Position numbers and translations under genes: made by a program. The notes below the pieces were generated by a model. The model did not search any database. It had not been told where the DNA came from and was given only the letters and a program-made list of their open reading frames with translations. Positions 1 through 19,799 of a stretch of 64,000 nucleotides of DNA are shown in pieces; the stretch's first letter is position 1, and every line of letters starts with the position of its first letter. This DNA is from Polyangium fumosum (GTDB lineage Bacteria; Myxococcota_A; Polyangia; Polyangiales; Polyangiaceae), in NCBI RefSeq assembly GCF_005144585.1, contig NZ_SSMQ01000051.1, positions 1 through 64,000 on the forward strand, given 5' to 3'.

Positions 1-3000
1 CCGCCGCTGCCTCCCGCCCCACCCATTCCCCCGGCCCCGCCCGCGCCGCCGCTGCCCGTGTTCTCCGTGAAATCGATCACCCGCGCCTGAACCCGCGCCG
101 TGCCGAACGGGGCCTCCACGAAAAACGTCGAATACGTGACCAGCACCTTGCCGTCGTTCGTCGACGCGAGTGACGGCGGGCCCTTCGGCTTGTCGTCCGC
201 CGTGATCGGCAAGCTCGTGACGACCGCGAGATGGCCGTCCAGCACGAGGGCCGCCTCGTCGGTCATCGTGGGGCCACAAGCCCGGTAGGCGACGATGAAC
301 CGGCCGCCATCCCTCACCACGCCGCGCTCCTCCAGCGCGAGGTAGGCGCAGCCGGCGTGGCTCGCGAGCTCGATCGGCGCCGCGTCCACGAGCGCGCCCG
401 CCGGGCTCACCCGCGTCCCGACGAGCTTCTGCGCCGCCTTGTCGATCCAGAACACCACATGATTCGTCCCGTCGAACACCGTCGAGACACCCCCGAAGCT
501 GCCCGGGCCCGCGAGCGTGAGCGGCGACGGATCCAAGGGCGCCCCCATCCCATCGACGCGCGCCACGCGCACTGCCGAGCCGTTCGACGGCTCCCACGCG
601 ACGAGGTGGTTCGTCCCGTCGAACGACGCGCTCAGGGCCGAGGACGTCGCCTCCAGCGAGACGACACCGCCGAGGGAGACCTGTCCCCCCGCGTCCATCG
701 TCAACGAGGCGAGCACGTCGTCCCCGAGGTCCGTGTCGTATGCGGAGCCCACGGCGAGCGTCCGGCCCGCGCCGACGGAGAGCGCCACACGCGCGCTCAG
801 GTCGGAGAAATTCGGCAGCTCGATCGACGGCGGATCGATCACGACGCCCTGCGTATCCATCCGGTTCACGAAGCTCGCGCAGGTGGAAGAGTCATAACCA
901 TTGATGCAATTCGAGAAGCCGAGGATCGTGCGCGTCCCGTCGAACGCGACGCTCGTGTGCGCCACGTCGCCCCCCCCGTCCTCCACGAAGATCCCGTTCG
1001 GATCGAGGGAGACGCCCGCCGGGGTGATACGCGCGGCATACAGGTTCGTGCCCTGCTCCAGCAGGAAGTCACGCGCGTCGGACCACGCGACGACGAAGTT
1101 TTGCCCGTCGAAGGCCGCCGATGGCGACCGCTGGTCGTTCGCGCCCCCCGAGACCAGGATCGGCGCCGCGTCGAGCGCCGCGCCGGTCGGGTCGAAGCGC
1201 CGCGCCTGGATCGAATACCCGCCGGGGAAGAAGCCATCGAAATACGCGTTTTGCCACACGACGAGCGCCTGCGACCCATTCGAGGCACCTTGCCCCTTCG
1301 CGCCCAGGTCCGTGTACGTCACGCCGCCCGGATCGAGCACCACGCCCTCGGGGGACACACGCGCGCGGCGCAGCGGGTAGGCGACGAAATCCGTCCAGTA
1401 ATTGCACCATGTCACGACGGCGTTCGTGCCGTCCGTCGTCACGTCGATCTCCGTCAAGTCGTAGACCGGATCGCCGATGGCGATGCCATCGGGATCCAGC
1501 ACCTCGCCCTGCTGCGCGTCGAAGCGCGTCCCCTTGATCGTCGTCTCGTACGTGTCGTCGTCGTATTGGCCGTACGCGATGAAGTAATTCTGCCCCGTCC
1601 ACACCGGCACCGGATCCCACGTGTCGAGGATCGGCGAAGGCGTCATGATTTCGATGCCCGCCGCATCCACGAGCGCGCCCTGGGCGTCGACGCGGTGTGC
1701 ATACCCGGACCCGCCCGTCTCGCGCAGGAGGAGCGCCCCCGCGCCGTTCGACGCGACGTCGAGCCGGTAGCCCGGCCCCACCACGATCCCGCCCGGATCG
1801 AGGGCCTGCCCGGCCGGCGAGACGCGCCCGTACAGGCCCGTGGAATTGTCGATCCACGCGACGAGGTAATTCACGCCGTCATAAGCGACCCGCGTCTTCT
1901 GCTGGATCGTCGTCGACGTCGAGAGCGTGACCGGCGCGCCCACGGGTTTGCCGTTCGCGTCGAGGCGCTGGCCGTAGACGCCCGTGCTCGAGATCGTGAA
2001 CGGGCTGCCCGTCTGGTACGTCAAGAAAAAGCCGTTCCCGTCGCTCGCGAGCGCGGGCTTGATCGGGTTCGAGCCTTCGACGACGGGAAACCCGGTCGTG
2101 TCGAGCACGGTGCCGTCGGCGGCGATACGCGCCGCATAGATACGCTTGTCCTGGATCGGGTCGAGATAACGATCCTCCTCCCAGGCGACGAGGTAATGGC
2201 TTCCGTTCGACGCGACTGCCGGCCGGAACCGACGCCGCCCCGCCGGCAGGCCCGCGATCGGCGCATCGATCCCGAACTCCGGCGTGAGGAGCGGATCCAG
2301 CACCGCCGGATACGCCGACGCCGCGAGCACGCGCGCCGGCACGCGCATCACGATGCGCCCCTGCTCGCCGCGCACGTCCACGCGTGTCTTTTTCCCCGTC
2401 GCGTCAATCCACGTCGCCCGGCCGAACCGCACGCCGATCCCCGTGGCCGCGTCGATGAAATGGTGACCGTCGTGGGTCTCGCCGATGAACGCCTCGCCCC
2501 CGACGTCGAGCGTGACCACGAGATCCCCCGCGCCTTCGGGCGCGCGCGCGAACGAATACGAGAGCTCGACGCCGCCGTCCCGATTTTCGAGGTGCTCGTC
2601 GACGTCCCCGCGCGAAACGACGAGGTGCCCATCCGCCTCGACGCGCCCCGCGCCCGCCCCGCGCCCAAGCTCGGTCCCGCCCCGCGTGACCCGCGCCGTC
2701 TTCACGCGCAGCGGCGCGCCGGCCCGCGGCGACGTGCGCGGCGACGCGGCCGGCGCGATCGGCACGATCTCGAACCCTTCTGCCGTCGCCGCGATCTGGT
2801 GTGCGGACCCCGCGCCGACGAACCTGCCGTTCTCCGCCCGGAACCTCGCGCGGGACGCGCGGACGCTCGCGTCGAGATCAAACGCGGGTGACACCTTCGC
2901 CCCGGACGCCGCGTCCCCGAGCGCGTGGCCCTCGGCCGGCGCCGGGCTCTCGCCGCGCGCGCACGCGGCGAGCAGGGCCGCCGAGAGGAGCAGGCTCACG

Positions 3001-3044
3001 CGATCGGCGAGAAAACGGAGGCGTGGGAAATTCTTGGGCATCAT
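1..3044 (-). CDS. Large secreted lipoprotein with repeated LVAW-type modules (partial, runs off left edge)
   Basis: Reading leftward from ATG ATG at 3044/3041 there is an open frame of about 1014 codons with no stop before the window edge. It begins with a hydrophobic signal segment ending in a lipobox (LLAAC followed by ARG), so the mature protein should be an acylated envelope lipoprotein. The body is built of repeated stretches of the type 'xYLVAWxD ... LDxxG', for example YLVAWEEDR, YLVAWIDN, FVVAWSDA and HLVAWEPS, which suggests a beta-propeller or beta-sandwich array. Near the left edge it changes to a Gly/Ala-rich linker (GGAGGAGGMGGAGG), so the rest could carry a further domain or a sorting tail. 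It diverges from the sigma factor gene with about 115 bp between them. Enzymatic function is unknown; gene identity is clear but the family name is not. Confidence 0.85.
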   Translation of the reverse strand, partial: MMPKNFPRLRFLADRVSLLLSAALLAACARGESPAPAEGHALGDAASGAKVSPAFDLDASVRASRARFRAENGRFVGAGSAHQIAATAEGFEIVPIAPAASPRTSPRAGAPLRVKTARVTRGGTELGRGAGAGRVEADGHLVVSRGDVDEHLENRDGGVELSYSFARAPEGAGDLVVTLDVGGEAFIGETHDGHHFIDAATGIGVRFGRATWIDATGKKTRVDVRGEQGRIVMRVPARVLAASAYPAVLDPLLTPEFGIDAPIAGLPAGRRRFRPAVASNGSHYLVAWEEDRYLDPIQDKRIYAARIAADGTVLDTTGFPVVEGSNPIKPALASDGNGFFLTYQTGSPFTISSTGVYGQRLDANGKPVGAPVTLSTSTTIQQKTRVAYDGVNYLVAWIDNSTGLYGRVSPAGQALDPGGIVVGPGYRLDVASNGAGALLLRETGGSGYAHRVDAQGALVDAAGIEIMTPSPILDTWDPVPVWTGQNYFIAYGQYDDDTYETTIKGTRFDAQQGEVLDPDGIAIGDPVYDLTEIDVTTDGTNAVVTWCNYWTDFVAYPLRRARVSPEGVVLDPGGVTYTDLGAKGQGASNGSQALVVWQNAYFDGFFPGGYSIQARRFDPTGAALDAAPILVSGGANDQRSPSAAFDGQNFVVAWSDARDFLLEQGTNLYAARITPAGVSLDPNGIFVEDGGGDVAHTSVAFDGTRTILGFSNCINGYDSSTCASFVNRMDTQGVVIDPPSIELPNFSDLSARVALSVGAGRTLAVGSAYDTDLGDDVLASLTMDAGGQVSLGGVVSLEATSSALSASFDGTNHLVAWEPSNGSAVRVARVDGMGAPLDPSPLTLAGPGSFGGVSTVFDGTNHVVFWIDKAAQKLVGTRVSPAGALVDAAPIELASHAGCAYLALEERGVVRDGGRFIVAYRACGPTMTDEAALVLDGHLAVVTSLPITADDKPKGPPSLASTNDGKVLVTYSTFFVEAPFGTARVQARVIDFTENTGSGGAGGAGGMGGAGGSG

Positions 3045-3158
3045 CCCACATCGATTACCACGGAGCAGGCGGGCGCGGGAAGCGGCTCTACGCCCGCGCT
3101 TGCTCCCCGGGCGGACCGGGTGGTATGAGCGGCAGACCGGGAAGCACCAGGAAGTTTC

Positions 3159-3821
3159 GTGTCGGAGAGCAGCGGAGCGCACGGTTCGTCGGAGATCGAG
3201 GCGCTCGTACGAGGCGCGCTCGGCGGCAATCGTGCGGCCCAACGCGCGCTCATCGAGGACGTGCTCGCGCCGGTCGTCCAGGCCCGCGTCGCCCGTGTCC
3301 TCGTCCGGCGCCTGAACTCGAAGGGGGATCTGCGCACCGAGATGATGGATCTCTGCCAGCAGGTCTTCGTGCACGTCTTCGGCCATCACCTGCTCGCGCG
3401 CTGGGATCCGGCCGCGGGCCCGCTCGGCGCGTTCGTCGGGACCATCGCGGAGAACCACGTCCGCTCGATCCTGCGCAGCCGCGTGCGGAGCCCCTTCACC
3501 GAAATCGCGACCGAGCAGGAGGCCTTGGAGCTCGCGCTGCCCCGCGGCGAGCAGAGCCACGAGACGACGATCGTCTCGCGCGAGGCGCTGCGGAGGCTCG
3601 AAGCCGAGCTCGACGACGAGGAGCGGGAGGGGTTTTTCGCGTTCTTCGTGGACGAGCGTTCCATCGAGGAGATGTGCGTGGTCACGGGCAAGAGCCGGGA
3701 GGCGGTCTACAAGCAGCGCCAGCGGCTCCGGGAGCGCGTGCGGCGGATCCTCGACGACGAGGCCGAAAGCTCGCGTCCGCCCGTGCGCGGGGCGCCGAGG
3801 ACCCGGGAGGAGGGGCTGTGA
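3159..3821 (+). CDS. ECF-type RNA polymerase sigma factor
   Basis: A 220-residue protein with the layout of a group 4 (ECF) sigma factor. A region-2-like segment carries DLCQQVFVHVF, where typical members have DxxQxxFxxxF. A C-terminal region-4 helix-turn-helix carries SIEEMCVVTGKSREAVYKQ followed by a basic helix. The GTG start at 3159 is chosen because an AGGAAG ribosome site lies 5-10 bases upstream and the next upstream starts lack one. It overlaps the next gene by GTGA at 3818-3821, so sigma factor and CHAT protein are almost certainly co-translated. No classical ZAS anti-sigma gene is adjacent. The membrane CHAT protein occupies the position where an anti-sigma factor is usually found, which suggests, as inference only, that it controls this sigma factor. 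Confidence 0.88.
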   Translation: MSESSGAHGSSEIEALVRGALGGNRAAQRALIEDVLAPVVQARVARVLVRRLNSKGDLRTEMMDLCQQVFVHVFGHHLLARWDPAAGPLGAFVGTIAENHVRSILRSRVRSPFTEIATEQEALELALPRGEQSHETTIVSREALRRLEAELDDEEREGFFAFFVDERSIEEMCVVTGKSREAVYKQRQRLRERVRRILDDEAESSRPPVRGAPRTREEGL

Positions 3822-6800
3822 GCGAAGAGCAGGATCCGCGGATCGAGGACCTCGCCCGGCGCGCGCGCGAGCGCGAAGAGAAAGAGCTCGCCGAGCTTTT
3901 GCGTCCGCTCGACAAGGCCGAACGAAGCGCGCTCGCCGACGCCGTGTTCGCCACGCTCGACGCGAAGGGCGCGCCGGAAGAAGCCCGCCCGGCGCCGGTC
4001 GTCCCGATCGAGAGGCCCAAGAAACTCGGCGCGCGCCGGAGGTTCGGGCTCGTCGGGGCGCTCGTCGCCGCGGCGCTCGGGGCGCTCGCGCTCTTCGTCC
4101 TCCTGCGCCGGGACGCGCCGGCCCCGATCGCGGCGTACACGCTCTCCGTCGAGGGCGGCAACCAGGCCGAGCGGGGGGACAGGCCGCCGGAAGACGTGGT
4201 GATCCGGCTGGATCCGGCTTCGCGGCTCTCGCTCGCGCTCCGGCCCGGATCACCCGTGGCGGGGGCGATCGCGGTGCGTGGGTTTCTCGTGCGGGAGGGC
4301 GCCGCGAGGGCGTGGGAGCCGCCCATGGTCGTCGGGGCGGGCGGCGTCGTGCGGATCGAGGGGACCGCGGCGGCGCTCTTCGGGGACGTGCCCGAAGGCG
4401 CGTGGGACGTCGTTTTGCTCGTGGGCCGGCCCGAGGCACTCCCGGACGAAGCGACGCTCGCGAAGGCGGCGGCATCCGGAGACAACCTCGCCGCGTTGTC
4501 GACGCATCGGCTGCGGATCACGCTCTCGCGGCCGCGCGGGGCGCTCGGCGGGGGCGGGGAGAACGAGGGCGCGCCGAAGAATCGCGTTTCCCAGTGCGCC
4601 TCCGCCCCGGCGGAGGTTCTCCCGGACGCCCTGGTGCAGGCGGAGGCGGCGCGGAAGCGCGGCGAGCTCGATCGGGCCTCGTCGCTCGTGGAGGGCGTGC
4701 TCGCGCAGGGGGCGCCGGACACGAGGCGGGCCGCGATCCGGCAAAAAGCCCGGATCCTCATGGCCACGCGCGGGCGGTTCGACGAAGCGGCCGCGCTGTT
4801 TCGCGAGGCCATCACGCAGGATCACGCGGCGGGGCGGCTCGCGGACGAGCTCGACGATACGTTCGCGCTTTCGTACGGGCTCCTGCTGGACAAGCGCGCG
4901 TTCGGCGAGGCGCGGGCCTTGCTCGATGGGCTCGGGCCGCTCCTTTTGGCGTGCCCCGAGGGCGAGCCCAAGGCGGCGTATTACAAGGGCCTGCTCGGGA
5001 TCGAGACGGGGGATCTGCGCGCGGCGCTGGCCTCGTTTTCGGCCGCGGCGGCGGGCGCGGAGCGGCTCGGGCTCGACGTGTATCGAAGCGCGGTGCTGGA
5101 GCAGGAGGCCGAGGTGCTGGCGGTGCTCGGGCGGCACGAGGAGGCGGCGGCGCGGCTCGGGCAGGCGCGGGCGCTCGCGGGGCCTTCGGCGGACGCGTGC
5201 CGGCGCGCGCAGCTCGCGAGCAATGCCGGGTGGATCGCGCTCCGGGCCTCCGCGCGCTCGGGGCGCGGGCTCGACGAAGCCAAACGGGAGCTCGACGAGG
5301 CGCTCGTGATCACGCGCGAGGGCTGTCCGGCGGGGCTCGGGAACGTCCTCGTGAATCTCGCGCTCGTCGAGCATGAGAGGGGGCGCGGCAAGGAGGCGCG
5401 GGCGCGTTTGGAGGAAGCGAAGCGCGCGGGCGGCTGGGCCGAGCTCGGCGGGTGGCAACGGATGATCGAGGCGCGGCTGCTCCTGTCCGAGGGAAACCCC
5501 AACGACGCGCTCGCGGCGCACGAGGCGCTGCGGGCCGAGGGGGAGCGGCTGCTCTTGCCCGAGCTCGTCTTCGAGGGCGCGCTCGGCCGGGCGGAGGCGC
5601 TCGCGGCGCTCGGAAAACGCGGGGAGGCGCGCGCGGCGTTCGGGGAGGCCGAGGCGGCGCTCGTGGCGTGGGGGCGGGGCGTGCCGCTCGGCGAGGGGCG
5701 GGGGTCGTTTCTCTCGGCGCGGCAGCGCGGCGCGCGGCTCTGGGTGGAGTTCTTGTTGCGCGAGGCGGAGCGGGGCGATGCGCGGGCCGCGCGGGAGGCG
5801 ATGGAGGCGGCGCGGCGGTCGCTCGCGGGATTCGTCCAGGCATTTCATTGGGTGAACCGCGTGGGCGCGCTCCCCGCGGAGGCGCGAAGGCGCTGGGACG
5901 AGGCGGTGGCGGCGTACCGGCACGAGCGCGCGGTGCTGGAGGAGAAGGCCGCGGCGCGTGGTCCGGGCGCGGGAGGGCTCGAACCGGAGCGGGCGGCGTT
6001 GCGGGGCGCGCTCGATCGGGCGCTCGCGGCGCTCGGCGCGGGCGAGGCGCGAGAGGCGGCGCCGCCCTTGTCCGTTCCGGCCGCGGAGGAGGCGCTTTTC
6101 GTGGTGCACCCGGCGCACGAGGGCCTCGCGGGGTTCGTCGTGACGGAGGGCGGGCGGAAGGTCGAGGCCCGGCGGCTCGGAGCGCTGGAGCCTTCGAGCG
6201 CGCCGGCCGCGCGCGCCGAGGCGTGGCTCGCGCCTTTTCGAGGCGCCCTCGCGAACGTGCGTCGCGTGCGTCTGGTGGTACCGGGGGAGCTTCTGTCCAC
6301 GGATTGGCACGCGCTCCCGCTCGATGGAGCGCCGCTGATCGAGCGCGCGGAGGTCGTGTATTCGATGGACCTCGCGCCGCGGCCCGGGGCGCCCGAAGGC
6401 ACGACGGCCGTGGTGATCGCCGATCCGACCGAGGATCTGCCCGGCGCGCGCGGGAGCGCGGGGGCGGTCGTCGCGGCGCTCGAAGCCCGGGGCTTGCGTG
6501 TCGTCTCGCTCCTCGGCGAGGCCGCGACGCACGAGGCCGTGCGGGACGCGCTGGAGCTGCCCTCCGTGCGGCTCTTGCATTATGCGGGGCATGCCACGTT
6601 CGAGGGGCCGGACGGGCTCGAAGCCTCGCTCCGCCTCGCCCGCCGGGGTCGTTTTTCGGTGGCCGACGTGATGGCCTTGGCCCGTGTCCCCGCGGTCGTG
6701 GTGCTCGCGGGGTGCGACACCGCGCGCGCCGCGGAGGTCGACGCGGGCGCCGGGGGGCTTGGCCTCGCGCAGGCCTTCCTCTTGAAGGGCGCCCGCGCGG

Positions 6801-6973
6801 CCGTCGCGACGCCCCGCCCGATGGGCGACGCGCTCGCCGAGCAAGCGACGCGCCTCCTTTATGCAGAGCCTATCGAGCGCGACCCGGCCCACGCCCTGCG
6901 CGCTGTGACCCTCGCCCTCCGGAAGGCGTCGCCCGAGGCCGACGGGACCGCCCTGCGCCTGCTCGGGGAGTGA
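3818..6973 (+). CDS. Membrane-anchored TPR-CHAT domain (caspase-like) protein
   Basis: 1051 residues from a GTG at 3818 behind a strong GGAGGAGG site. The layout is a charged N-terminal segment (about 1-75), one transmembrane helix (about 76-96, preceded by KKLGARRR so the N-terminus is predicted cytoplasmic), a beta-rich segment (about 105-250), tetratricopeptide-like helical repeats (about 280-640), and a C-terminal CHAT domain. The caspase-type dyad is visible as His925 in HYAGHA and Cys966 in LAGCDTA. CHAT proteins are clan CD peptidases related to caspase and separase. Here the peptidase and its TPR region would lie outside the cytoplasmic membrane and only the short N-terminus would reach the sigma factor. 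Coupling with the sigma gene argues for a signalling role. Whether it cleaves anything, and what, cannot be told from sequence. Confidence 0.88.
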   Translation: MSEEQDPRIEDLARRAREREEKELAELLRPLDKAERSALADAVFATLDAKGAPEEARPAPVVPIERPKKLGARRRFGLVGALVAAALGALALFVLLRRDAPAPIAAYTLSVEGGNQAERGDRPPEDVVIRLDPASRLSLALRPGSPVAGAIAVRGFLVREGAARAWEPPMVVGAGGVVRIEGTAAALFGDVPEGAWDVVLLVGRPEALPDEATLAKAAASGDNLAALSTHRLRITLSRPRGALGGGGENEGAPKNRVSQCASAPAEVLPDALVQAEAARKRGELDRASSLVEGVLAQGAPDTRRAAIRQKARILMATRGRFDEAAALFREAITQDHAAGRLADELDDTFALSYGLLLDKRAFGEARALLDGLGPLLLACPEGEPKAAYYKGLLGIETGDLRAALASFSAAAAGAERLGLDVYRSAVLEQEAEVLAVLGRHEEAAARLGQARALAGPSADACRRAQLASNAGWIALRASARSGRGLDEAKRELDEALVITREGCPAGLGNVLVNLALVEHERGRGKEARARLEEAKRAGGWAELGGWQRMIEARLLLSEGNPNDALAAHEALRAEGERLLLPELVFEGALGRAEALAALGKRGEARAAFGEAEAALVAWGRGVPLGEGRGSFLSARQRGARLWVEFLLREAERGDARAAREAMEAARRSLAGFVQAFHWVNRVGALPAEARRRWDEAVAAYRHERAVLEEKAAARGPGAGGLEPERAALRGALDRALAALGAGEAREAAPPLSVPAAEEALFVVHPAHEGLAGFVVTEGGRKVEARRLGALEPSSAPAARAEAWLAPFRGALANVRRVRLVVPGELLSTDWHALPLDGAPLIERAEVVYSMDLAPRPGAPEGTTAVVIADPTEDLPGARGSAGAVVAALEARGLRVVSLLGEAATHEAVRDALELPSVRLLHYAGHATFEGPDGLEASLRLARRGRFSVADVMALARVPAVVVLAGCDTARAAEVDAGAGGLGLAQAFLLKGARAAVATPRPMGDALAEQATRLLYAEPIERDPAHALRAVTLALRKASPEADGTALRLLGE

Positions 6974-6998
6974 GCCAAGGCGCCCGCGAGATTTTTTT
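6955..6998 (+). terminator. Possible rho-independent terminator after the CHAT gene
   Basis: GCGCCT and AGGCGC form a stem, extended by GCTC/GAGC with a 2-nt bulge, spanning the CHAT stop codon. A few bases later comes an uninterrupted run of seven T at 6992-6998. The stem is imperfect and the gap to the T-run is about seven bases, so strength is uncertain. Confidence 0.45.
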
Positions 6999-7007
6999 CT
7001 CCACCTC

Positions 7008-7035
7008 TGTCCAATCTCCGGATCCGAAGGCGTAA
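7008..7035 (+). promoter_or_regulatory. ECF-like promoter motif, copy 1
   Basis: TGTCCAATCTCC, nine variable bases, then GGCGTAA. The identical pattern with the same spacing occurs at 10078-10105 before the next gene. Spacing from TGTCC to CGTAA is 18 bp, which fits a -35/-10 pair for an ECF sigma factor. The candidate regulator is the sigma factor encoded at 3159, which is inference. The start codon of the downstream gene is about 100 bp away. Confidence 0.6.
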
Positions 7036-7133
7036 GCCCCGCCGAACACGCCGCGAGGTAGGTCCCGCGTGCGCGCCGCATGGCCGTGGCGCGCCCTCGG
7101 GGCGCGCTCGGGCTTTTTTTCGAGAGGTGGGAC

Positions 7134-10061
7134 ATGGCTCGCATGTCGAAGAGGACGGTTCTGTCCACGCTCATCGGTGTATCCATCGTATTGCCTTGCA
7201 CGACGGCCTTCGCGGACGTCGTGCTGGAGCCCAACGTCATCAAAGGACAGGCGCGGTTCTCCAATACGAACCCCAGTGTCGTCGCGCTGCTCCAGCAGCT
7301 CGGGATGACGTCGGCCCAGGTGAACGCCTCGAGCTCGTCGCCCTCCGGGTACACCAGCAACACGAACGCGCTCGTCGGCACGCCGCTCTCGCGCAGCTTC
7401 GAGCTCTCCGCCGAGTCGGGCGCCGGGGGGCCGGGCGGCGTCACGTACAGCCTGGGCGCGACCGGCTTCCTGTATGCGGCGGCCGGGTACACCGCGTCGG
7501 GGCAGTACTGGTTCCAGCCCACGACGGGCGTCGTGCTGAAGCCCCTCGCGCAGCAGCCCGGCGGGACGACCGCGGACATCGCGGACTGCATTGGCCTCGT
7601 GCGCGTCCGCTGGGGGCTCGATCCGCAGTGCAATACGCCCTTCACCATCGGCTCGGGCTCGATCCAGACGAGCTACAGCACGAGCAACTTCCAGAACACC
7701 GCCGAGCATTACATCCTGCAGCTCGGCGGCACGAGCGAGACCAGGCTCCTCTCGATCACGACGGGGAACGACCCGACGCTGAACACCATCACGTTCCAGA
7801 TCCCGCTGGATTTGCATCCGGCGTGTGACGAGATCCAGGACATCTGCATCGACATGTCCCAGTACATCGACGGCGGCGGCGCGCTCGGCTCGCTGACGGG
7901 CCCGTTCGACGTGCTCGGGGAGGTCGAGCTGGGCCAGACGTACATTCGCGCGCAGGACGGGCCCTCCGGCAACAGCCGTTACGGGTATTTCTCGCCCCCC
8001 GAGATGCCCGTCGCATCCCCCGCCGACTGGTGGACCCTGCCCAACATGATCCCCGGTGATTACCGCGGGTATGGTCAGACGCTCGTCCGCACGGGCCGCC
8101 TCGCCACGCAGCTCGTCACGCCGCGCATGGGACCCGGTTTTCCCGCCGGCCCGATGACCGTCCAGTCCGGCGTGAGCTCCGATTTGCAGCAAAACATCGG
8201 CGGGCAGCTCCGCTATCCGTTCGTCATGACGCCCGCCCGGTTCGCTGGGAAAATCCACCTCGCCGACCCCTACGTGGCGGCGAACAGCGGCGCGTACAGC
8301 TCGCTCTCGGCCCTGCGGTTTTCGGCCGATCCCCCCTGGTCGAGCCAGTATCCCTGGGGCACCACCCTGCGGGCGCTGGACACCGACACCTACGGCGGCC
8401 AGAGCATCACCTCGTTCGAGGGCACCTTCGACCCGGCGATCGGCGCGCTTTCGTCCGTGTACGAGCAGCTCGTCGTCAATCCGTACGACATCCCGACGCA
8501 GTGGACACAGACGGGTCTGATGCTCGATTTCGACGCCCCGGCCGCCCAGCGCCAGGGCTTCCTCACGATGCGGCGCGACGGCACGAGCCACCTCGTCGGC
8601 CCGGGCGACGTCGTGCCCATCGACCACATCTATTGCTTCAACGAGGTCGAGCTGCCCTATTCCATCGCGAGCGGGCTGCTCTTTGATCCCTACGCCCAGG
8701 TGACCGGCTCGTTCACGGGGACGGACTGGATGGGGAACGCGACGTCGTACACGGCCCAGGGCACGTTCCAGGGATGGCCGCAGACCCAGGCGAACGCCGC
8801 CACGAACGGCATGGTTCGCCTCGCGCTCCCCCAGGGGTCGTATACCATCCAGCCTGGATCGAGCGTAGAATCGGTCTCCGGCGCGGTCAGCAACGCGACG
8901 TTCGCCAAGACCACGCTCACGCTCGGCTGCGGGCAGCGCGTGACGGTCTCGCCGGGCCTCAGCGTCTCGGCCGAGCTCCCGCTCTGCGCGACGTCGGCGA
9001 CGCCCGACATCGTCGGCGCCGTGGCGAGCAGCGGCGTCCCCGTCGATCACATCTGGTACACGATCAACGGCGGCCCCGCCGTCGACATTTGCACCTCGAA
9101 CTGCGGCGCCGATCCGCAATTCAGCGCGCCCGTGAGCCTCGCGGCCTGCGGCAACACGATCCAGGTCTTCGCGAGCGCGGGCGGACAAACCACCTCGGTC
9201 ACGACGCAGACGACGTGGGAGGATCCGAACGACGGCGTCGATTGCGAGGGCTCCTGCGAGCCGCCGCCGTCCTCCGGTGAGACGTGCGCCACGGTGGACG
9301 TGAAGCCGCTCGCCTGCGAGGGCGGCGGGGGTGGATATTCGCTGACGCTCGAGATCAAGAACGAGCTCGACGAGCCCATCACCTACGTGCTCCTGCCCGA
9401 TCCGCACGTGTCCCCGAACGTCGTCACGCTGGCCGATCCGCTCCAGCCCGGGGCGTCGACGAAGGTCACGGTGACGGTCTCCGGCGTCAATCCCGGCGCC
9501 GGGGTTTGCCTCAACCTGGGGATGTCGAACCCCTCGCAAAATGAATGCTGCTCGAAGGAGGTCTGCTTCGAGGTGCCGGCGTGCTGCTTCTCCGTCGAGG
9601 GGCAAAAGACCTCTTGTATCCAGGGCGCGCCGGGCGGGACGTTCGAGGCCTCGTTCAACTTCGAGAACCGCACGCTCGACACGATCGAGCACGTCTTCCT
9701 GTTCCCGCCGAGCGGCGTGACCGTCTCGCCGCAATACGTGGACGTCCCGGCCACGCCCCCGGGGGGCCTCGCGCACGTGGGTGGGCTCTCGTTCACGGGC
9801 GCGACGCCCGGCGAGGAGCTTTGCCTCACCGTGGGGATTCACGACGAAGAGATGAACGAGTGCTGCGCGGACGAGGTTTGCTTCCAGGTGCCCCAGCCTT
9901 GCAAAAAGGAGCTCCCCGGCGACATCCTCTCGCCGACGAAAAACCTCGCCGCCGCCGAGAGCTGCTCCGTCAGCGCGGCGGGCGGTGAGCGAGGCTCCGT
10001 CGTGGGCCTCCTTCTCGGCCTCGCGGCCCTCGGTGGGCTCGCGCGACGCCGCCGCCCGTGA
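7134..10061 (+). CDS. Secreted Cys-rich protein with MYXO-CTERM-like sorting tail
   Basis: 975 residues. The ATG at 7134 is chosen because GAGAGGTGGG lies just upstream and the product then begins with a clean signal peptide (basic start, hydrophobic core, cleavage near TAFA-DV). The large N-terminal part is unrecognised. A central segment (DHIWYTINGG and following) resembles a chitobiase C-terminal-like beta domain. Two related Cys-rich beta modules follow, each ending NECC...EVCFxVP. The C-terminus has a Cys (SCSV), a Gly-rich spacer, a hydrophobic helix (VVGLLLGLAALGGLA) and RRRRP, the MYXO-CTERM pattern used by Myxococcota for surface sorting. The protein is therefore predicted to be exported and displayed. 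It shares its promoter motif with the subtilase downstream. Function unknown. Confidence 0.85.
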   Translation: MARMSKRTVLSTLIGVSIVLPCTTAFADVVLEPNVIKGQARFSNTNPSVVALLQQLGMTSAQVNASSSSPSGYTSNTNALVGTPLSRSFELSAESGAGGPGGVTYSLGATGFLYAAAGYTASGQYWFQPTTGVVLKPLAQQPGGTTADIADCIGLVRVRWGLDPQCNTPFTIGSGSIQTSYSTSNFQNTAEHYILQLGGTSETRLLSITTGNDPTLNTITFQIPLDLHPACDEIQDICIDMSQYIDGGGALGSLTGPFDVLGEVELGQTYIRAQDGPSGNSRYGYFSPPEMPVASPADWWTLPNMIPGDYRGYGQTLVRTGRLATQLVTPRMGPGFPAGPMTVQSGVSSDLQQNIGGQLRYPFVMTPARFAGKIHLADPYVAANSGAYSSLSALRFSADPPWSSQYPWGTTLRALDTDTYGGQSITSFEGTFDPAIGALSSVYEQLVVNPYDIPTQWTQTGLMLDFDAPAAQRQGFLTMRRDGTSHLVGPGDVVPIDHIYCFNEVELPYSIASGLLFDPYAQVTGSFTGTDWMGNATSYTAQGTFQGWPQTQANAATNGMVRLALPQGSYTIQPGSSVESVSGAVSNATFAKTTLTLGCGQRVTVSPGLSVSAELPLCATSATPDIVGAVASSGVPVDHIWYTINGGPAVDICTSNCGADPQFSAPVSLAACGNTIQVFASAGGQTTSVTTQTTWEDPNDGVDCEGSCEPPPSSGETCATVDVKPLACEGGGGGYSLTLEIKNELDEPITYVLLPDPHVSPNVVTLADPLQPGASTKVTVTVSGVNPGAGVCLNLGMSNPSQNECCSKEVCFEVPACCFSVEGQKTSCIQGAPGGTFEASFNFENRTLDTIEHVFLFPPSGVTVSPQYVDVPATPPGGLAHVGGLSFTGATPGEELCLTVGIHDEEMNECCADEVCFQVPQPCKKELPGDILSPTKNLAAAESCSVSAAGGERGSVVGLLLGLAALGGLARRRRP

Positions 10062-10077
10062 GGCCACGCGGATTCTC

Positions 10078-10105
10078 TGTCCAATCTCCACGGTGAGCGG
10101 CGTAA
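10078..10105 (+). promoter_or_regulatory. ECF-like promoter motif, copy 2
   Basis: TGTCCAATCTCC, nine bases, GGCGTAA: the same sequence and spacing as at 7008-7035. It ends 30 bp before the GTG start of the subtilase gene. Conservation of both blocks while the nine-base spacer differs argues for a selected promoter rather than a recent duplication. Confidence 0.62.
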
Positions 10106-10130
10106 AGTCTCACGATCGCTCACCGTGGAG
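10086..10130. promoter_or_regulatory. Perfect 13-bp inverted repeat around a putative -10 and the ribosome site
   Basis: CTCCACGGTGAGC at 10086-10098 is exactly mirrored by GCTCACCGTGGAG at 10118-10130, with a 19-bp loop. The left arm lies inside the promoter motif, the putative -10 is at the start of the loop, and the right arm contains the ribosome-binding GTGGAGG of the next gene. It may be an operator for a dimeric repressor. If transcripts enter from upstream, it would act as a hairpin hiding the ribosome site. Confidence 0.6.
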
Positions 10131-10135
10131 GTCTC

Positions 10136-12211
10136 GTGTCCCGCTTCCTGTCGTCCCGCTTCGGGCTTTCTCTGGTCGTCCTCGGCGCCGTGCTCGCCCC
10201 CGGATTCGCCTGCGGTCCCGCGCCCGCGCCGTGTCCTCCCGCGGAGGATGACGCCGGCTGCACCGGCCAGCGCTGGATCTCCATCGGCAACCCCAGCGCC
10301 CCTTGCCCCGCCGATTCCCTCGGCATCTGGGCGGAGGAGAAGCTCTTCAAGGGGCCCGTGGGCGGCCCTCCGCCCGCGCTCGCGCGTTATTGCGTCTACG
10401 AGTGGACCGGCGCGCGCGTGAACCCCGGCGCGACGCAATGCTTGCCGTACGGCGCGAATGGACCGGGGGATGACGAGATCAATCACCTCCAGACGGTCGT
10501 CACGGCGGGCGCGGAACTCGGCGAGGACTGCATCGACACGGCGCCGCTCGGCTTCGAGGAGGACGCCGCGGGCTGGGCGCGCAAATCGCTCACCCGACGG
10601 GCCGGCGGCGTCGATTCGCTTGCGCCGTCGGCCATGGATCCGACGCTCCCGCGCCCCGTGCGGGTCGTCGCCGTCGACACGTCGCCCGACGCGCTCTCCG
10701 GCGGTATTGCCGTCGGCCAGAGCCGGCACGGCGATACCGTGGCGCACGTCGCCCGGGATCTCGCGTGTCCAAACACCGAGGCGGCCCCTTGCGCGGCCCA
10801 CGTCACGACGGCGCTCGGTTTGCCCCGCGAGGACCTCGCGAATCCCCTGGTCACCTCGCCGGCGCAGGGCGGGTTTTTCGGCACGGAGGGAGATCTCGCG
10901 CAGGCCATCGAGCGGAGCGTGCTCTCCTTTCGGACCGAGGTCGCCGCAGGGCAGGGGGATCCGCGGCTCGTCCTCAATTTGAGCGTGGGATGGGAGGACG
11001 ATCCGGAGCGGAACAATTGCGCGCCCGCTCAGCTCGCCCAGAACCCTGATTCGCTCGCGCCGCCCGCGCGCGCCGTGCTCGATGCGATGCGGTATGCCGC
11101 GTGCCACGGCGCGCTCCTCCTCGCGGCCGCCGGCAACGACACCGGCGGACCCAAGCCGCCGAGTGGCCTCGTGTGTCCCGCGCGCTGGGAGGTGATCTCG
11201 ACGCCCGACGCCGCGACGTGCGACGCGCTCGTCGGCGCCAAGTTCATCACGGCGTGGGCCGAGCGATGGCCGAGCTTCCCGCGCAGGCCCGCGTCCGCGC
11301 AGGCCTACGATCGCGTCGTGTATGCCGTCGGCGGCGTCGATTACAACGACGCCCCCCTCGTCCCGTCGCGCCCGCTCGCGCGCCCGCGCCTCGCGGCCCT
11401 CGGCCTGCTCGCGGCCGGCTGGGATATGTCGTCGAACGCCGCGGTCACGCCCAATACGAACGGGCAACCCCCCACGGCGCCGCCGCTCTTGACGGGCACG
11501 TCCGTCGCGACGGCGGTCGCCAGCGCGATCGCCGCGGGCAGGTGGGCGTACAACCCCGCGGCCACCGCGCCCGAGATCCTCGACGCGATCTATCAATCGG
11601 GCGTGGTGCTCCAGCAGAATGGCTCGAACATCCGCGCGGATCCGGATACGTGCATCGGGACGAGCGCGTGCGCCGTGCACCGCCTCTCCTTATGTCGCGC
11701 GCTTGGCGTGCCTTGCGACGATGCCGCGCCCGTGGGAGCGCAGAACGATCCGTTGCCCAATCCGGCCCTTTCGTCCACGCTCTTGGCCACGCTCGCGGGC
11801 GAGTTCAATGCGGCGATCGTCTCGCAGGCGTCGTTCCCGGACACCTTGCCCCTTCCGAGCGCCGGCCACCCGACGGTCGCCGCCTCGCCGTGGACGTTCC
11901 CGCAGCCGAACTGGCCTGCGTGCCCGGCCTGCGTGCTGGCCGTCGATGGCCCGAACAACGTGATCCTTTATGCGAGGCCCGGCGTCACGATGACCGACCT
12001 CACGCTCGTGATCGTCGATCGCCAGGGTATCGTTCGCTCGGCGCGCGTGGCGGCCACGGCTCCGCGCAATGATGCCCTGCGGATCACGATCACGCCGCAG
12101 ACCGGGTTTTCCGTGGCCAACGCGCGCAGCGTATGGCTTTCGGGGACGGCGACGACGCAGAGCGGGAGCCCTGTCTCCGTCGTTCAGCAAATCGCGGTGA
12201 CCGGGCTCTGA
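10136..12211 (+). CDS. Subtilisin-like (S8) serine protease lipoprotein
   Basis: 691 residues from a GTG with GTGGAGG five bases upstream. The signal peptide ends in a lipobox-like GFAC (Cys26), so membrane anchoring is expected. The S8 catalytic triad is recognisable: Asp181 in VVAVDTSPD, His198 in SRHGDTVAH, and Ser456 in GTSVATA. The oxyanion Asn is in AAGND at about 334. Spacing is longer than in secreted subtilisins, with Cys-containing insertions between His and Ser. The C-terminal 200 residues are a separate domain without recognisable catalytic motifs. The gene follows the MYXO-CTERM-like protein with a 74-bp gap and has the same promoter motif, so the two are probably co-regulated. 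An exported protease under control of a CHAT/sigma pair would fit a surface-processing role, which is speculative. Confidence 0.87.
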   Translation: MSRFLSSRFGLSLVVLGAVLAPGFACGPAPAPCPPAEDDAGCTGQRWISIGNPSAPCPADSLGIWAEEKLFKGPVGGPPPALARYCVYEWTGARVNPGATQCLPYGANGPGDDEINHLQTVVTAGAELGEDCIDTAPLGFEEDAAGWARKSLTRRAGGVDSLAPSAMDPTLPRPVRVVAVDTSPDALSGGIAVGQSRHGDTVAHVARDLACPNTEAAPCAAHVTTALGLPREDLANPLVTSPAQGGFFGTEGDLAQAIERSVLSFRTEVAAGQGDPRLVLNLSVGWEDDPERNNCAPAQLAQNPDSLAPPARAVLDAMRYAACHGALLLAAAGNDTGGPKPPSGLVCPARWEVISTPDAATCDALVGAKFITAWAERWPSFPRRPASAQAYDRVVYAVGGVDYNDAPLVPSRPLARPRLAALGLLAAGWDMSSNAAVTPNTNGQPPTAPPLLTGTSVATAVASAIAAGRWAYNPAATAPEILDAIYQSGVVLQQNGSNIRADPDTCIGTSACAVHRLSLCRALGVPCDDAAPVGAQNDPLPNPALSSTLLATLAGEFNAAIVSQASFPDTLPLPSAGHPTVAASPWTFPQPNWPACPACVLAVDGPNNVILYARPGVTMTDLTLVIVDRQGIVRSARVAATAPRNDALRITITPQTGFSVANARSVWLSGTATTQSGSPVSVVQQIAVTGL

Positions 12212-12351
12212 CGTTTCCGAGGATACTCCCCAGCCAGCCGCAAGCTGCACGGAGGCCCGCCCGGTTGGCCGCCGCACGGGGAGCATGCTACGCGTCGAGG
12301 AGGCCCCGCGCCGAGAGCGCAGGCGATGCGGGTGTTCAAGAAGGCGCAAGG

Positions 12352-13155
12352 ATGACCGCCACGACCCCTCTGCCCGTTTCCACCGCCCCGTGGAAGCCCG
12401 ACCTGAAGATCGCCGTGCTGCTCGGCGTGGTGTCGGCGCTGGCCGTGGCCGCGCTGATCCCGTACCTGGTGCAGCTCATGCCGGACAAGTTCGCGAAGCT
12501 GCCGGTGCCGCTCCCGGTGTTGGTCGTCGCGCAGTCGCTGCAGGCGCTCGTCCTGATGGGCCTGACGTCGCTGGCCGGCCTGCGCATGGGCCGTCGCGTC
12601 GGCCTCGGCGCGCCGCTGCTGCAACGCTGGATCAACCACGAGCCGCTGGTCCTCGCGCCGCGGCCGCTGCAGGCGATCCTGCTCGGCGTCGCCGCCGCGC
12701 TTGGGGTCGTCGCCCTGTCCGCGGGGATCGATCCGTTCCTGCCGCCGATGCTGCACCCGCCGGCGAAATCCGGTGCCGGAGAATCGGCGCTGAACGGTTT
12801 CCTCGCTTCGTTTTACGGCGGCATCGCCGAGGAGCTGCAACTGCGCCTGTTCCTGATGACGCTGATGGTGTGGCTGGTCGCGGTGCTGCGCAAGGCCAGG
12901 CCATCGCCGCGCGTCTACGGGATCGCGATCGCCATGGCCGCGCTGCTGTTCGGCGTAGGCCACCTGCCTGCCGCGCACCATGTCTGGGGGCTCGATGCGG
13001 TGGTCGTCGTACGCACCGTGCTGCTCAACTCCATCGCCGGACTGGCGTTTGGCTGGCTGTACTGGAAGCGCGGGCTGGAGATGGCGATCCTCGCCCACTT
13101 CAGCGCCGACATCGTGTTGCACGTCCTGGCTCCCCTGGTAGCGAAAGCAGCCTGA
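12352..13155 (+). CDS. CPBP family intramembrane glutamic endopeptidase (CAAX/Abi type)
   Basis: 267 residues with about seven hydrophobic segments. The family signature is present: EELQLR (EExxxR), then FGVGHLP and AHFSAD carrying the later His residues of the active site. CPBP proteases cut substrates within the membrane; roles include prenyl-protein processing and bacteriocin self-protection. The ATG at 12352 follows an AAGG and is preferred over upstream in-frame starts, which would add an Arg-rich segment without membrane character. Codon use differs from its neighbours: CTG outnumbers CTC about two to one in the first 100 codons, while flanking genes favour CTC, and Lys/Gly choices also differ. 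This suggests acquisition from another high-GC lineage such as a gammaproteobacterium. Confidence 0.87.
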   Translation: MTATTPLPVSTAPWKPDLKIAVLLGVVSALAVAALIPYLVQLMPDKFAKLPVPLPVLVVAQSLQALVLMGLTSLAGLRMGRRVGLGAPLLQRWINHEPLVLAPRPLQAILLGVAAALGVVALSAGIDPFLPPMLHPPAKSGAGESALNGFLASFYGGIAEELQLRLFLMTLMVWLVAVLRKARPSPRVYGIAIAMAALLFGVGHLPAAHHVWGLDAVVVVRTVLLNSIAGLAFGWLYWKRGLEMAILAHFSADIVLHVLAPLVAKAA

Positions 13156-13503
13156 CGTTGCCCATTCCAAGGGCGAGCATCCTCGCCTCGGCCGTGATCC
13201 ACCTCCGCTCCGCGACCGAACGCGGCCAGGTGACCCCGTCTCTCGCCCGCTCCGCGTCCACCCCACAGAAGGGACGCCCCGATCCTCCCCCGCGCCGCCG
13301 CCGCGCGCACCAAGTCGAGCCGTGATCCTCCGGTGGTCACGCCATGTTCCCCGGTAGGACGCCCCGTCCCTCCCGTGGTCACGACGCGCGCGGGGGCAGG
13401 CGAGCCGTGATCGTACCCCCTCGACACGACGCGCGGGGGTAGGAGAGGCCCGCCGTTCCCTTTCGCTTGACGTGGCAACGGGCAGTCCGGTAGCACACCT
13501 CGC
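13156..13503. other. Intergenic stretch with degenerate short repeats
   Basis: No convincing gene. Between about 13310 and 13450 there are related words in loose tandem: GAGCCGTGATC twice, GTGGTCACG twice and CACGACGCGCG twice, each followed by G-rich then C-rich tracts. This may be debris of a small repeat or hairpins. It borders the foreign-looking CPBP gene. Confidence 0.4.
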
Positions 13504-14187
13504 ATGCGCCAGATTCCGCTCTCCTATGGCCTGCTTTATTTCCTCGACGAGCTCGAGTTCACCGAGGCTGCGCTCAGCGCCGACGAGGACGCCGCCTTGC
13601 TCGCGCCGCCGTTCACGGAGGCCATCGGGGAGTGGGAGGGCCTCTTCGCGCAGGAGCGCGCGGCGCGCCGGGGCGTGACCCGGGCCGAGGCGGTGGTCGC
13701 GGTCCGCGACGAGCGGCTCGATTCGTCCACGAAGCGCTTCGGGGCCGCCGTGCGCGCATTCGCGCCGGAGCTGCTCGGGAAGTTCTTCGGCGGCGCGGCG
13801 CCGGGGCAATTCGTGCGAAAGGGGCTGCGCTCGCAATGCGAGAAGACGCGCGACGTGCTCCTCGTCGAGGTTAAGAAGCTCAACCCCCACCACGAGCTCA
13901 TCCCCTTCGCGGCCCCCCTCGGCACAGGCAGCGAAGCCGCGCTCGATGCGCTCGACGTCCGCGTCAAGGCCAAAGGAAAGCGGCAGCTCGTCACGAACGA
14001 GACCGACGAATGGAAAGAAGGCATCAACGCCCTGCGGACGACGACCTACGCGGAGCTGCTCAAGATCGCGACCAAGAAGAAGTTCCCCAAGTCGTGGGTC
14101 GAGTCCTTCTTCCGAAAGCCCGACGGGGCCAAGAGCGAAGAGGCGAATACGGACGCAGGCGCCGAATCCGAAGGCGAAGAGCCCTGA
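13504..14187 (+). CDS. Hypothetical protein, 227 aa
   Basis: The start is ATG at 13504; no signal peptide or membrane segment is visible. The N-terminal half is acidic and helical. The second half is basic, with a Lys-rich patch (KIATKKKFPKSW), and the protein ends in an acidic Glu/Ala tail. Amino-acid composition and third-position GC are those of a real gene. I do not recognise a family. It converges with the P450 gene, and the two stop codons are adjacent. Confidence 0.7.
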   Translation: MRQIPLSYGLLYFLDELEFTEAALSADEDAALLAPPFTEAIGEWEGLFAQERAARRGVTRAEAVVAVRDERLDSSTKRFGAAVRAFAPELLGKFFGGAAPGQFVRKGLRSQCEKTRDVLLVEVKKLNPHHELIPFAAPLGTGSEAALDALDVRVKAKGKRQLVTNETDEWKEGINALRTTTYAELLKIATKKKFPKSWVESFFRKPDGAKSEEANTDAGAESEGEEP

Positions 14188-15384
14188 TCAGGAGGAATGC
14201 AAGACGATCGGGAGCGAGCTCGGGCCACGCACCAGAAGCGTGCGGTGCCAGGCCATCGGCTCGGGCCCGGGTGAGATGCGGCGCGCGTGATCGAAGAGCG
14301 CCTCCAGCGCGAGGCGTCCCTCCAGGCGCGCGAGCTGCGCGCCGAGGCAGAAGTGCACGCCGTGGCCGAAGGGCAGGTTCTTCGGGCCGGGCCGCTCCAG
14401 GTGGAACTGGCCCGCGTCGGGGAATTGGGATTCGTCGTGGTTGGCCGAGCCGACCATCACGAGCAGCGGCGCGCCTTTGGGTAGTTTCACGCCGCCGAGC
14501 TCGACCTCCGCGGTCGTCGTGCGGGGCACCGCGTGGAGCGGCGGCTCGTAGCGCAGCACCTCGTCGATGAAGGCAGGGAGGAGCGATCGATCCGCGCGGA
14601 GTTTTTCCCATAACTCCGGCCGTTCGAGGAGGACGACGAGCGAGGTGCCGAGCATGTTCACCGCGGTCTCGATGCCGCCCACGAGGAGCAGGGTCATGAA
14701 GGCAATCAGCTCGTCCTCGGTCAGCGCCTCGCCGTCGACCTTGGCCGTGAGCAGGTCACTCACGAGATCCTCGGCGGGCGCGCGCCGGCGTTCTTGCAAA
14801 AGCTCACCGAAATAACGCCGCAGGTCCGCCACGGCGTCGCGGGCGAGCTGCTTCCGATCGTGTTCGTCCGGACGCACGGTGGTGACGCCGCCGGTGATGA
14901 GGTCCGCCCATCGCTTGAGGCGCGCGTGCAGCGAGGGGGAGAGCCCCATCAGGTCGCCGATGACGAAGGCCGGGATTCGCAGGGCATAAGGCGGCATGAT
15001 GTCGACGGGTTGTTCGCGCGGCAGCTCGGCGACGGCTTGTTCGGCAAAGGCCCGCACGCGTGGCTCCACCCGCGCCATGGCGAAGGTGCCGAAGGCCTTC
15101 GAGACGAGCGCGCGGAGCCGCCCGTGCTGGGGCGGATCCAGGGTGATCATCGAATCGGCGAACGGATTGCCGCCGAGCCACGGCGGGTTCACCGCCAGGC
15201 CAAAGCCGCGCGAGGAAAAGAGCTCGGGATGCTTGAGGACGAAGAGGACGTCGTCGTGCCGCGTGACGGCCCACATGCCACCCGGGTCCACCTGGCACAC
15301 GGGCGCGTCGCGGCGCATGTCCGCATAAATCGGGTAGGGGTTGGTTCTGAACTCCGGCGAGAGCACGTTGTATCGAGAGGTCAT
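14188..15384 (-). CDS. Cytochrome P450
   Basis: 398 residues, the usual length for a soluble bacterial P450. The heme-binding loop is FGHGVHFCLG with the thiolate ligand at Cys346. The K-helix ExxR motif is E275-VL-R278. The I-helix segment reads GGIETAVN (about 236-243), in place of the common AGxET, keeping Glu-Thr for oxygen activation. The substrate is unknown. No ferredoxin or ferredoxin reductase lies nearby, so redox partners must come from elsewhere. The gene is divergent from the lipoprotein at 15436 with a 51-bp gap that must hold both promoters. Confidence 0.95.
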   Translation of the reverse strand: MTSRYNVLSPEFRTNPYPIYADMRRDAPVCQVDPGGMWAVTRHDDVLFVLKHPELFSSRGFGLAVNPPWLGGNPFADSMITLDPPQHGRLRALVSKAFGTFAMARVEPRVRAFAEQAVAELPREQPVDIMPPYALRIPAFVIGDLMGLSPSLHARLKRWADLITGGVTTVRPDEHDRKQLARDAVADLRRYFGELLQERRRAPAEDLVSDLLTAKVDGEALTEDELIAFMTLLLVGGIETAVNMLGTSLVVLLERPELWEKLRADRSLLPAFIDEVLRYEPPLHAVPRTTTAEVELGGVKLPKGAPLLVMVGSANHDESQFPDAGQFHLERPGPKNLPFGHGVHFCLGAQLARLEGRLALEALFDHARRISPGPEPMAWHRTLLVRGPSSLPIVLHSS

Positions 15385-15435
15385 GAAGGAACTCCAAGGG
15401 GGAAGGTCGACGCGCTCCGGCGCGTTTTCGCCGCC

Positions 15436-16296: not shown

Positions 16297-16321
16297 GCCC
16301 GTCATGATAGAAGGGTGGGCG

Positions 16322-17125: not shown

Positions 17126-17137
17126 GCGGGCGAGCCT

Positions 17138-19777: not shown

Positions 19778-19799
19778 GAATAACGATTCCTACCGCCGA

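Follow-up and report, generated by a model that had tools for sequence, protein, structure and literature searches.

An ECF sigma factor gene overlapping a gene for a fused anti-sigma-like and TPR-CHAT protein in Polyangium fumosum

The sigma gene, the fused gene and their neighbours

The window, by which we mean the whole stretch of 64,000 nucleotides from P. fumosum that was analyzed, carries on its forward strand, as are all features given below, an ECF sigma factor gene (3159..3821; 220 aa, GTG start) followed by a gene for a fused anti-sigma-like/TPR-CHAT protein (3818..6973; 1,051 aa, GTG start). As the initial annotation had stated, the two genes overlap by GTGA: open reading frames 3159-3821 and 3818-6973 share positions 3818..3821, which hold the GTG start codon of the fused gene and the TGA stop codon of the sigma gene. 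The fused gene is preceded by a Shine-Dalgarno-like GGGAGGAGG (3805..3813) that matches AGGAGG at 6/6 positions. The sigma factor has the Sigma70 regions 2 and 4 of an ECF sigma factor; their Pfam scores lie slightly below the cut-offs, and the TIGR02937 match (44.3 bits) lies above its cut-off of 42.9. A whole-genome search found orthologues with 89 to 95% identity in at least four genomes of the genus. Among the 300-bp upstream regions of 38 module sigma genes, from which five close relatives had been removed beforehand, no spaced dyad stood out against shuffled sequences, and GGAAC was less frequent than in the latter. An upstream alignment of the window with four relatives, which partly covers the start of a divergent gene, revealed no clear promoter.

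The N-terminal third of the fused protein, which we call the brake (residues 1-250), begins with a segment placed in the cytoplasm (residues 1-75; 3818..4042), in which the alignment and a structural model predict helices at residues 7-27 and 33-50. This segment has no Cys or His, the first such residue of the protein coming not before residue 230, and it looks like a shortened form of an anti-sigma-like domain in the same alignment and model. One strongly hydrophobic helix follows (residues 78-96; 4049..4105; hydropathy, 2.74 over 19 residues), in agreement with the earlier claim of a short N terminus and one membrane helix. The conserved extracytoplasmic domain (residues ~100-236; 4115..4525), recognized by alignment, is modelled as an Ig-like beta-sandwich in a split homologue and has a pLDDT below 50 in the model of the fused protein. 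When the split-brake model was used in a fold search, Ig-like folds filled the list, the best being NPC2 (Z, 9.3). Residues ~237-268 (4526..4621), of low confidence in the model, form a linker at the fusion joint; here the split relatives and one further protein (L075) have an FAGC..C-type domain, so that L075 retains an outer domain lost from the window protein. The N-terminal segment matched no known anti-sigma family, and Pfam anti-sigma matches were absent in 22 brake homologues.

Beyond the linker, the model predicts a TPR-type helical superhelix (residues ~269-738; 4622..6031), which bears out the TPR-like repeats claimed at the outset even though the Pfam TPR matches are weak, and then a CHAT caspase-like domain (residues ~758-1050; 6089..6967). 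The latter is a member of the CHAT family PF12770, matched at residues 803-1038 with 95.3 bits against a cut-off of 24, and has the His-Cys dyad: His925 (6590..6592; motif HYAGH) and Cys966 (6713..6715; motif LAGCDT) are both where they had been said to be. Both residues are kept in 56/56 full-length relatives (55 by pattern and 1, L150, by eye). A fold search with the window model retrieved the Craspase TPR-CHAT protein (Z, 28.6) and separase (Z, 23.3). When the window protein was searched by sequence against solved structures, there was no match. The same search with A1 and A4 as queries (for A4, the best 60 of 64 matches) yielded TPR proteins along with others that were mostly helical. Chains of DdvA and Csx29 were absent from these matches and were retrieved by fold search only. 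PADLOC, run on four proteins, gave only weak BovA matches, within the CHAT region.

Downstream lie a gene for a secreted protein of unknown family (7134..10061; 975 aa), which stands between module genes and is not counted in the module, and a gene for a subtilase-like (S8) secreted protein (10136..12211; PF00082, 29.7 bits; cut-off, 21.8), which we count as the fourth module member. The subtilase has Asp181, His198, Asn334 and Ser456, and the Asp, His, Ser and oxyanion Asn are present in 19/19 complete copies aligned.

Linkage, splitting and fusion across relatives

The initial annotation had called for a genome survey of sigma-CHAT pairing, and the pairing proved to be conserved: homologues of both the sigma factor and the brake lie near the CHAT gene in 43/48 loci whose flanks extend 3 kb or more. 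Part of this count comes from a scan of named genomes, whose loci, unlike the other relative regions, were not chosen by hand from match lists, though its one search pattern was a CHAT motif; tblastn with the full window protein served as confirmation. In the scan, 31 full-length loci were flanked by 3 kb or more on each side; a sigma homologue was found in 26 of them, a homologue of the N-terminal segment in 28, upholding the expectation that this segment is kept alongside the sigma factor, and sigma and brake homologues together in 26. The whole-genome searches scored 5, up to 20 or 7 candidates per genome, so that their tallies are lower bounds. In the window's own genome, both loci of this CHAT family carry the sigma gene; the four other CHAT loci had no ECF gene nearby among the matches listed (150 of 187 ECF candidates scored). 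When the brake alone was the query, matches came from at least 43 of the 377 genomes searched in the phylum; among 16 regions picked from these matches, the CHAT family was present in 14 and the sigma factor in 14, the brake itself not being refound by our own profile in 3. One of these regions has sigma and brake without CHAT (L239), and another has none of the four module members (L232). Sigma relatives also occur without CHAT in the stretches fetched (L090, L092, L099, L104, L105 and L107), and CHAT proteins occur without a brake or sigma homologue nearby (L121, L142 and L145). Judged from gene neighborhoods, the pairing of sigma and CHAT is not due to chance. Evolutionary distances between module members correlate over 41 loci (r = 0.76 to 0.88; among distant pairs, 0.34 to 0.61); such a correlation also arises through shared descent.

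After 14 duplicate loci had been merged, the family comprised 56 loci, and in 41 of these the brake is a separate open reading frame, a zinc-less single-pass anti-sigma-like protein, with TPR-CHAT encoded by another gene. The brake is fused in 6, including the window, and was not seen in 9. This result changes how the supposed lack of an anti-sigma gene is to be read: there is indeed no separate zinc-finger gene, but an anti-sigma-like protein is present, fused as residues 1-250, and because this N-terminal third is anti-sigma-like and a gene of its own in 41/56 relatives, the claim that the anti-sigma factor is missing is unsupported. The split CHAT proteins also provide separate support for the CHAT domain's position outside the membrane, as 40/42 have a hydrophobic, export-type N-terminal stretch, compared with 3/26 sigma factors and 74/264 other open reading frames; the signal was judged from the hydrophobic stretch at modelled start codons, and L123, L131 and L136, whose starts are unclear, were excluded. 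Fusion, topology and conservation are all read here from sequence, and the window protein is best explained as having arisen by fusion of the brake gene with the gene for an exported protease, which are apart in most relatives. The fused proteins form one clade (SH-like support, 99) of Polyangium and Minicystis. An independent origin of the Minicystis fusion is thus unsupported; the Minicystis end branch is long. A tblastn search of plasmid records with the window protein gave no match.

Comparison with known sigma control systems

The closest architecture is that of DdvS/DdvA of Myxococcus xanthus (PDB 8rot, 8rw5 and 8rlz), in which, as read in the DdvA-like L184, an ECF sigma gene likewise overlaps the gene for a single-pass TPR-CHAT protein. 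L184 matches 8rot over its length (E = 1e-134), and its N terminus also matches DdvA chain 8rlz. DdvA is a solved transmembrane anti-sigma factor (8rot and 8rw5), and the window model matches its TPR-CHAT region: VIA-align gave a Z of 21.6 with 8rot (615 aligned residues, 5.3 Å), and hhalign of the window TPR-CHAT region with the DdvA-like set gave a probability of 98 and an E of 7e-14 over 518 columns. The window protein thus has a DdvA-type TPR-CHAT ectodomain, as well as the sigma gene overlap and single membrane helix that are also found in L184, L185, L189 and L190. Whole-chain Foldseek TM-scores to DdvA are low (0.21 to 0.24), which we attribute to a different placement of the domains. 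Because DdvA is already a transmembrane anti-sigma factor with a matching TPR-CHAT region, the architecture is of a known kind, and the earlier suggestion of a new type of sigma control does not hold; as judged by sequence and fold comparison, the window system is a variant of the known DdvA-like architecture, from which it differs by its zinc-less N terminus. DdvA-like proteins have a zf-HC2 N terminus (5/5, although they were chosen partly for such a motif), whereas the window family lacks it. The N-terminal profiles of the two groups align over the membrane helix only, the brake profile did not match the DdvA anti-sigma chain, and BLASTP of the window protein with L184 gave an E of 0.35. 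The window family differs further from DdvA in that it is mostly encoded by two genes, often with an adjoining subtilase gene. No match to a DdvA-like query was seen in 98 genomes from the taxonomic family of the window, a weak result, as the set held no positive genome. The 2024 DdvA paper reportedly proposes autoproteolysis in trans followed by RseP and is said to call the active site of DdvA incomplete. The split module had no recognizable description in the literature searched, the key DdvA and ECF group papers being outside that search.

Craspase (Csx29/Csx30/CASP-sigma, type III-E CRISPR) likewise co-encodes a TPR-CHAT protease, an ECF sigma factor and a sigma inhibitor; a passage in PMC10028731 describes cleavage by Csx29 of Csx30, the inhibitor of an ECF sigma factor. 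The window model is predicted to have the same TPR-CHAT protease fold with a His-Cys dyad, and the Craspase matches in the fold search had Z values of 21.7 to 28.6 (best, 7y83_D; Z, 28.6). However, the Craspase protease belongs to the Cas7-11 complex, with RNA as its trigger, whereas the window protease would, from its sequence, be outside and membrane linked. The brake profile did not match any Csx30 chain at E ≤ 1 in a sequence search, and no CRISPR-type repeat array was seen in positions 1-20000 of the window. In having CHAT and subtilase genes in its context, the module resembles ECF54, for which PMC8999054 reports both of these proteins, as well as a carboxypeptidase, in the gene neighborhood. 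ECF54 is said to function with no anti-sigma factor, and its model member is from the actinobacterium Geodermatophilus. RseA, finally, is a single-pass anti-sigma factor whose cleavage outside the membrane is followed by cleavage within it, as summarized in PMC10028731. Compared with RseA/DegS/RseP, the site-1 protease in the window would be caspase-like and fused to the brake.

A proposed membrane switch and its alternatives

Taken with the kept catalytic residues, the module, its fusion and its topology point to a membrane sigma/anti-sigma switch, which we consider probable, in which the N-terminal helices hold the sigma factor and the outer CHAT protease cuts the brake. We infer the binding, the cleavage, the order of events and the cue as follows. 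The cytoplasmic helices in residues 1-75 would hold the ECF sigma factor, and a single membrane crossing would link them to the Ig-like domain and the TPR-CHAT cysteine protease outside. The TPR superhelix would read an envelope cue, perhaps with involvement of the neighboring subtilase. CHAT would then cleave the brake in its outer part, in trans in split systems and in cis or between two copies in the fused form, after which a site-2 protease would free the sigma factor. The window genome contains M50 site-2 protease matches. We counted it against the anti-sigma reading that the N-terminal segment of the window protein has only two short helices.

Another reading is that TPR-CHAT is a sensor rather than a protease, much as MucB acts as a binding and sensing partner for MucA, with release carried out by some other protease, such as the neighboring subtilase as the site-1 protease. 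The subtilase suits this role, in that all complete copies have their catalytic residues and the gene is present in 29/56 loci, frequently right behind CHAT; in L142 and L145, a CHAT gene is accompanied by a subtilase gene while the flanks contain neither sigma nor brake. Yet pure sensing does not require the dyad that every full-length relative keeps, and the subtilase was not seen in 27/56 loci, though flanks were short in many, and we regard a sensor without protease activity as doubtful. The same two loci would fit an effector role, in which sigma and brake regulate an exported CHAT/subtilase pair directed at outside targets (prey, phage or envelope proteins) and CHAT has no control over the sigma factor. 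The export-type starts of the split CHAT proteins favor this, as does the location of CHAT on the opposite strand in 11/43 linked loci; in the Polyangium-Minicystis clade, however, CHAT is part of one protein with the membrane brake, which puts it in the regulator itself, as does the DdvA precedent, and an effector role seems unlikely to us. We consider it very unlikely that the two genes are orthologues of DdvS and DdvA controlling a phage defense island: gene order, overlap and architecture are the same, and the TPR-CHAT regions are homologous by profile and fold, but the zinc finger is absent, the N-terminal parts share only the membrane helix, BLASTP with L184 gave the E of 0.35 noted above, and the repeat search was negative.

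Extending the switch with CHAT as the cutting protease, we put forward tentatively, and with less conviction, an envelope-sensing sigma system with two proteases, belonging to Myxococcota and Acidobacteriota, in which an exported, partly lipid-anchored TPR-CHAT protein would serve as the site-1 protease for a new family of zinc-free membrane anti-sigma factors, in a cascade with the subtilase, and would, in Polyangium, have become one protein with its substrate through fusion. If this is true, the same outer protease would have been joined to unrelated sigma-binding domains separately in the DdvA type and in the window family. The module may also bear on the description of ECF54 as lacking an anti-sigma factor. 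To our knowledge, few myxobacterial CHAT domains have a known substrate. That one module exists both split and fused indicates a likely CHAT substrate and partner, and in the split form, unlike in the fused DdvA, protease and brake are separate molecules. Myxobacteria commonly carry CHAT domains, with 4 to 31 matches per genome in six genomes.

Conservation and linkage of the module

The ECF sigma ORF at 3159-3821 (plus strand), which passes TIGR02937, overlaps a 1051-aa ORF at 3818-6973 on the same strand in the GTGA manner, and a strong ribosome-binding stretch precedes the overlap. The 1051-aa protein carries a CHAT domain with a His925/Cys966 pair, weak TPR matches and one helix at 78-96; its nearest relatives are in Polyangium strains, and the host genome is 12.98 Mb. 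Its first 250 residues correspond to a single-pass membrane protein that we call the brake. After 14 duplicates were merged, we counted 63 CHAT loci, 56 of them full-length family members, and these had a sigma homologue in 44 cases, a brake in 47 and a subtilase in 29, with 6 fused. The sigma/CHAT pair recognized in the initial annotation proved to be real. Of the full-length members, 48 had flanks of 3 kb or more in each direction, and both sigma and brake were present at 43 of these loci (26/31 in the named-genome scan alone); sigma and CHAT lay on the same strand in 32 of these 43 loci and on opposite strands in 11. Matches in the named scan came mostly from Myxococcota (Polyangium, Sorangium, Byssovorax, Pyxidicoccus, Labilithrix, Minicystis and Enhygromyxa) and Acidobacteriota (Holophagales, SZUA-115), the remaining few being weak or unplaced. 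Within the order, the family was present in 26 of 144 genomes when five candidates were scored per genome.

When the brake alone was the query and seven candidates were scored per genome, 43 of the 377 genomes of the phylum gave a match. Among 16 regions hand-chosen from these matches, two of which (L234 and L238) repeat earlier loci, we found a CHAT-family match in 14 (partial and at the end of the stretch in L230, L235 and L242), a sigma in 14 and, by our own profile, a brake in 13. Sigma, brake and CHAT distances were correlated over 41 loci (r 0.76, 0.84 and 0.88; permutation maximum 0.20), with lower values for distant pairs (0.34, 0.56 and 0.61). One locus, L239, had sigma and brake homologues with no CHAT gene within its 11-kb stretch, and at L142 and L145 CHAT and subtilase genes adjoined, with neither a sigma nor a brake homologue in the flanking DNA. 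The Sorangium cellulosum genome that contains locus L133 had 31 CHAT matches, some perhaps pieces.

A putative brake fused to, or separate from, the CHAT protein

It had been thought that the usual anti-sigma gene was missing beside the sigma gene. Instead, the brake is fused to CHAT in the window protein: outside the genus Polyangium, and in further copies within it, the first 250 residues match a separate ORF of ~200 to 340 residues and the CHAT part another, and Polyangium has fused orthologues plus split copies. Among the 56 full-length members, the brake was separate in 41, fused in 6 and not seen in 9. The separate protein combines a helical part in the cytoplasm with a single membrane helix and an outer domain that is conserved. 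A model of one split homologue (mean pLDDT 83) shows five cytoplasmic helices plus an Ig-like sandwich. Of the cytoplasmic helices, the window protein keeps just the first and last; this part is similarly short in several split homologues. The brake matched none of the Pfam anti-sigma families, so it is called a putative anti-sigma on the grounds of its position, topology and linkage.

The fused proteins form a single clade (SH-like 99). L075, a locus on the earliest branch among the fused members of Polyangium, retains the FAGC..C-type domain found at the start of split CHAT proteins, and the window protein has lost it, which reads as fusion first and trimming later; the absence of this domain in Minicystis would be a second loss. 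In Minicystis rosea (L143), the fused form is overlapped by a divergent ECF sigma (L143:5114-5725; TIGR02937 42.4 bits, slightly below the cut-off) that the sigma profile of the module does not detect, which suggests that the sigma partner has been exchanged.

The topology of the fused protein hangs on a single helix; the N termini of split CHAT proteins are a separate test of the predicted outside location of the protease. A hydrophobic N-terminal stretch was present in 40 of 42 split CHAT proteins with a usable start and a strict lipobox in 14, compared with 3/26 and 0/26 for the sigmas and 74/264 and 31/264 for other ORFs at the same loci; examples are MKTAALALVLLGLGC (Sorangium, L133) and MRRRFELILILSLSLAGC (Enhygromyxa, L147). 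The outside placement of CHAT in the initial annotation holds up.

Relation to DdvA and other systems

The arrangement had also been taken to be a new type of sigma control, but the architecture is already known: a fold search with the full window-protein model placed the Myxococcus xanthus transmembrane anti-sigma factor DdvA first by E-value. A structural aligner ranked the Craspase TPR-CHAT protein first (Z 28.6), ahead of others including separase (23.3) and DdvA (21.6). The DdvA paper reportedly proposes autoproteolysis in trans with RseP acting next, and describes the active site as incomplete. For a direct comparison, we took 15 CHAT regions from two Sorangium genomes, Pyxidicoccus and one genome of the Myxococcaceae. 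In five proteins from Pyxidicoccus and the Myxococcaceae genome (L184, L185, L189, L190 and L191), TPR matches were accompanied by a zinc finger and a helix, and His and Cys were visible in all five C termini. Four reached PF12770; L189 fell below it, yet aligned over its full length with the other four. L184, L185, L189 and L190 are each overlapped by an ECF sigma gene, and L184 matched the DdvA structure 8rot with an E value of 1e-134. By profile, the TPR-CHAT parts of these DdvA-like proteins are homologous to those of the window family, whereas alignment of the N-terminal parts is confined to the membrane helix. DdvA appears to belong to a larger family.

A phage-defence island is under the control of DdvS, the sigma partner of DdvA (PMC12288465), Csx30 is cut by Csx29 (PMC10028731), and ECF54 has CHAT and subtilase neighbours without an anti-sigma (PMC8999054). 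Judged from the literature searched, what is new is the zinc-free family of brakes (putative anti-sigmas), the split three-gene form with a predicted exported CHAT protease and the subtilase adjoining the module.

The subtilase and other neighbours

The subtilase was one neighbour family, found in 20 of 47 loci compared. Seven of the proteins were scanned, one of which (L143) fell slightly below the Pfam cut-off; Asp, His and Asn were present in 20/20 copies, and each of the 19 complete ones had the Ser. In the window, the subtilase (10136-12211) is separated from the fused gene by one unrelated gene (7134-10061), which encodes a 975-aa secreted protein with no Pfam match over the cut-off and no NCBIfam match. 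This protein ends in a small-residue helix followed by RRRR, resembling a sorting signal. Divergent from the sigma gene, and starting ~115 bp before it, is a minus-strand gene (3-3044) that continues beyond the window edge; its lipoprotein-like product of at least 1014 aa had no match in a Pfam scan. A further ECF sigma match (58.7 bits) lies at 27279-27728 on the minus strand.
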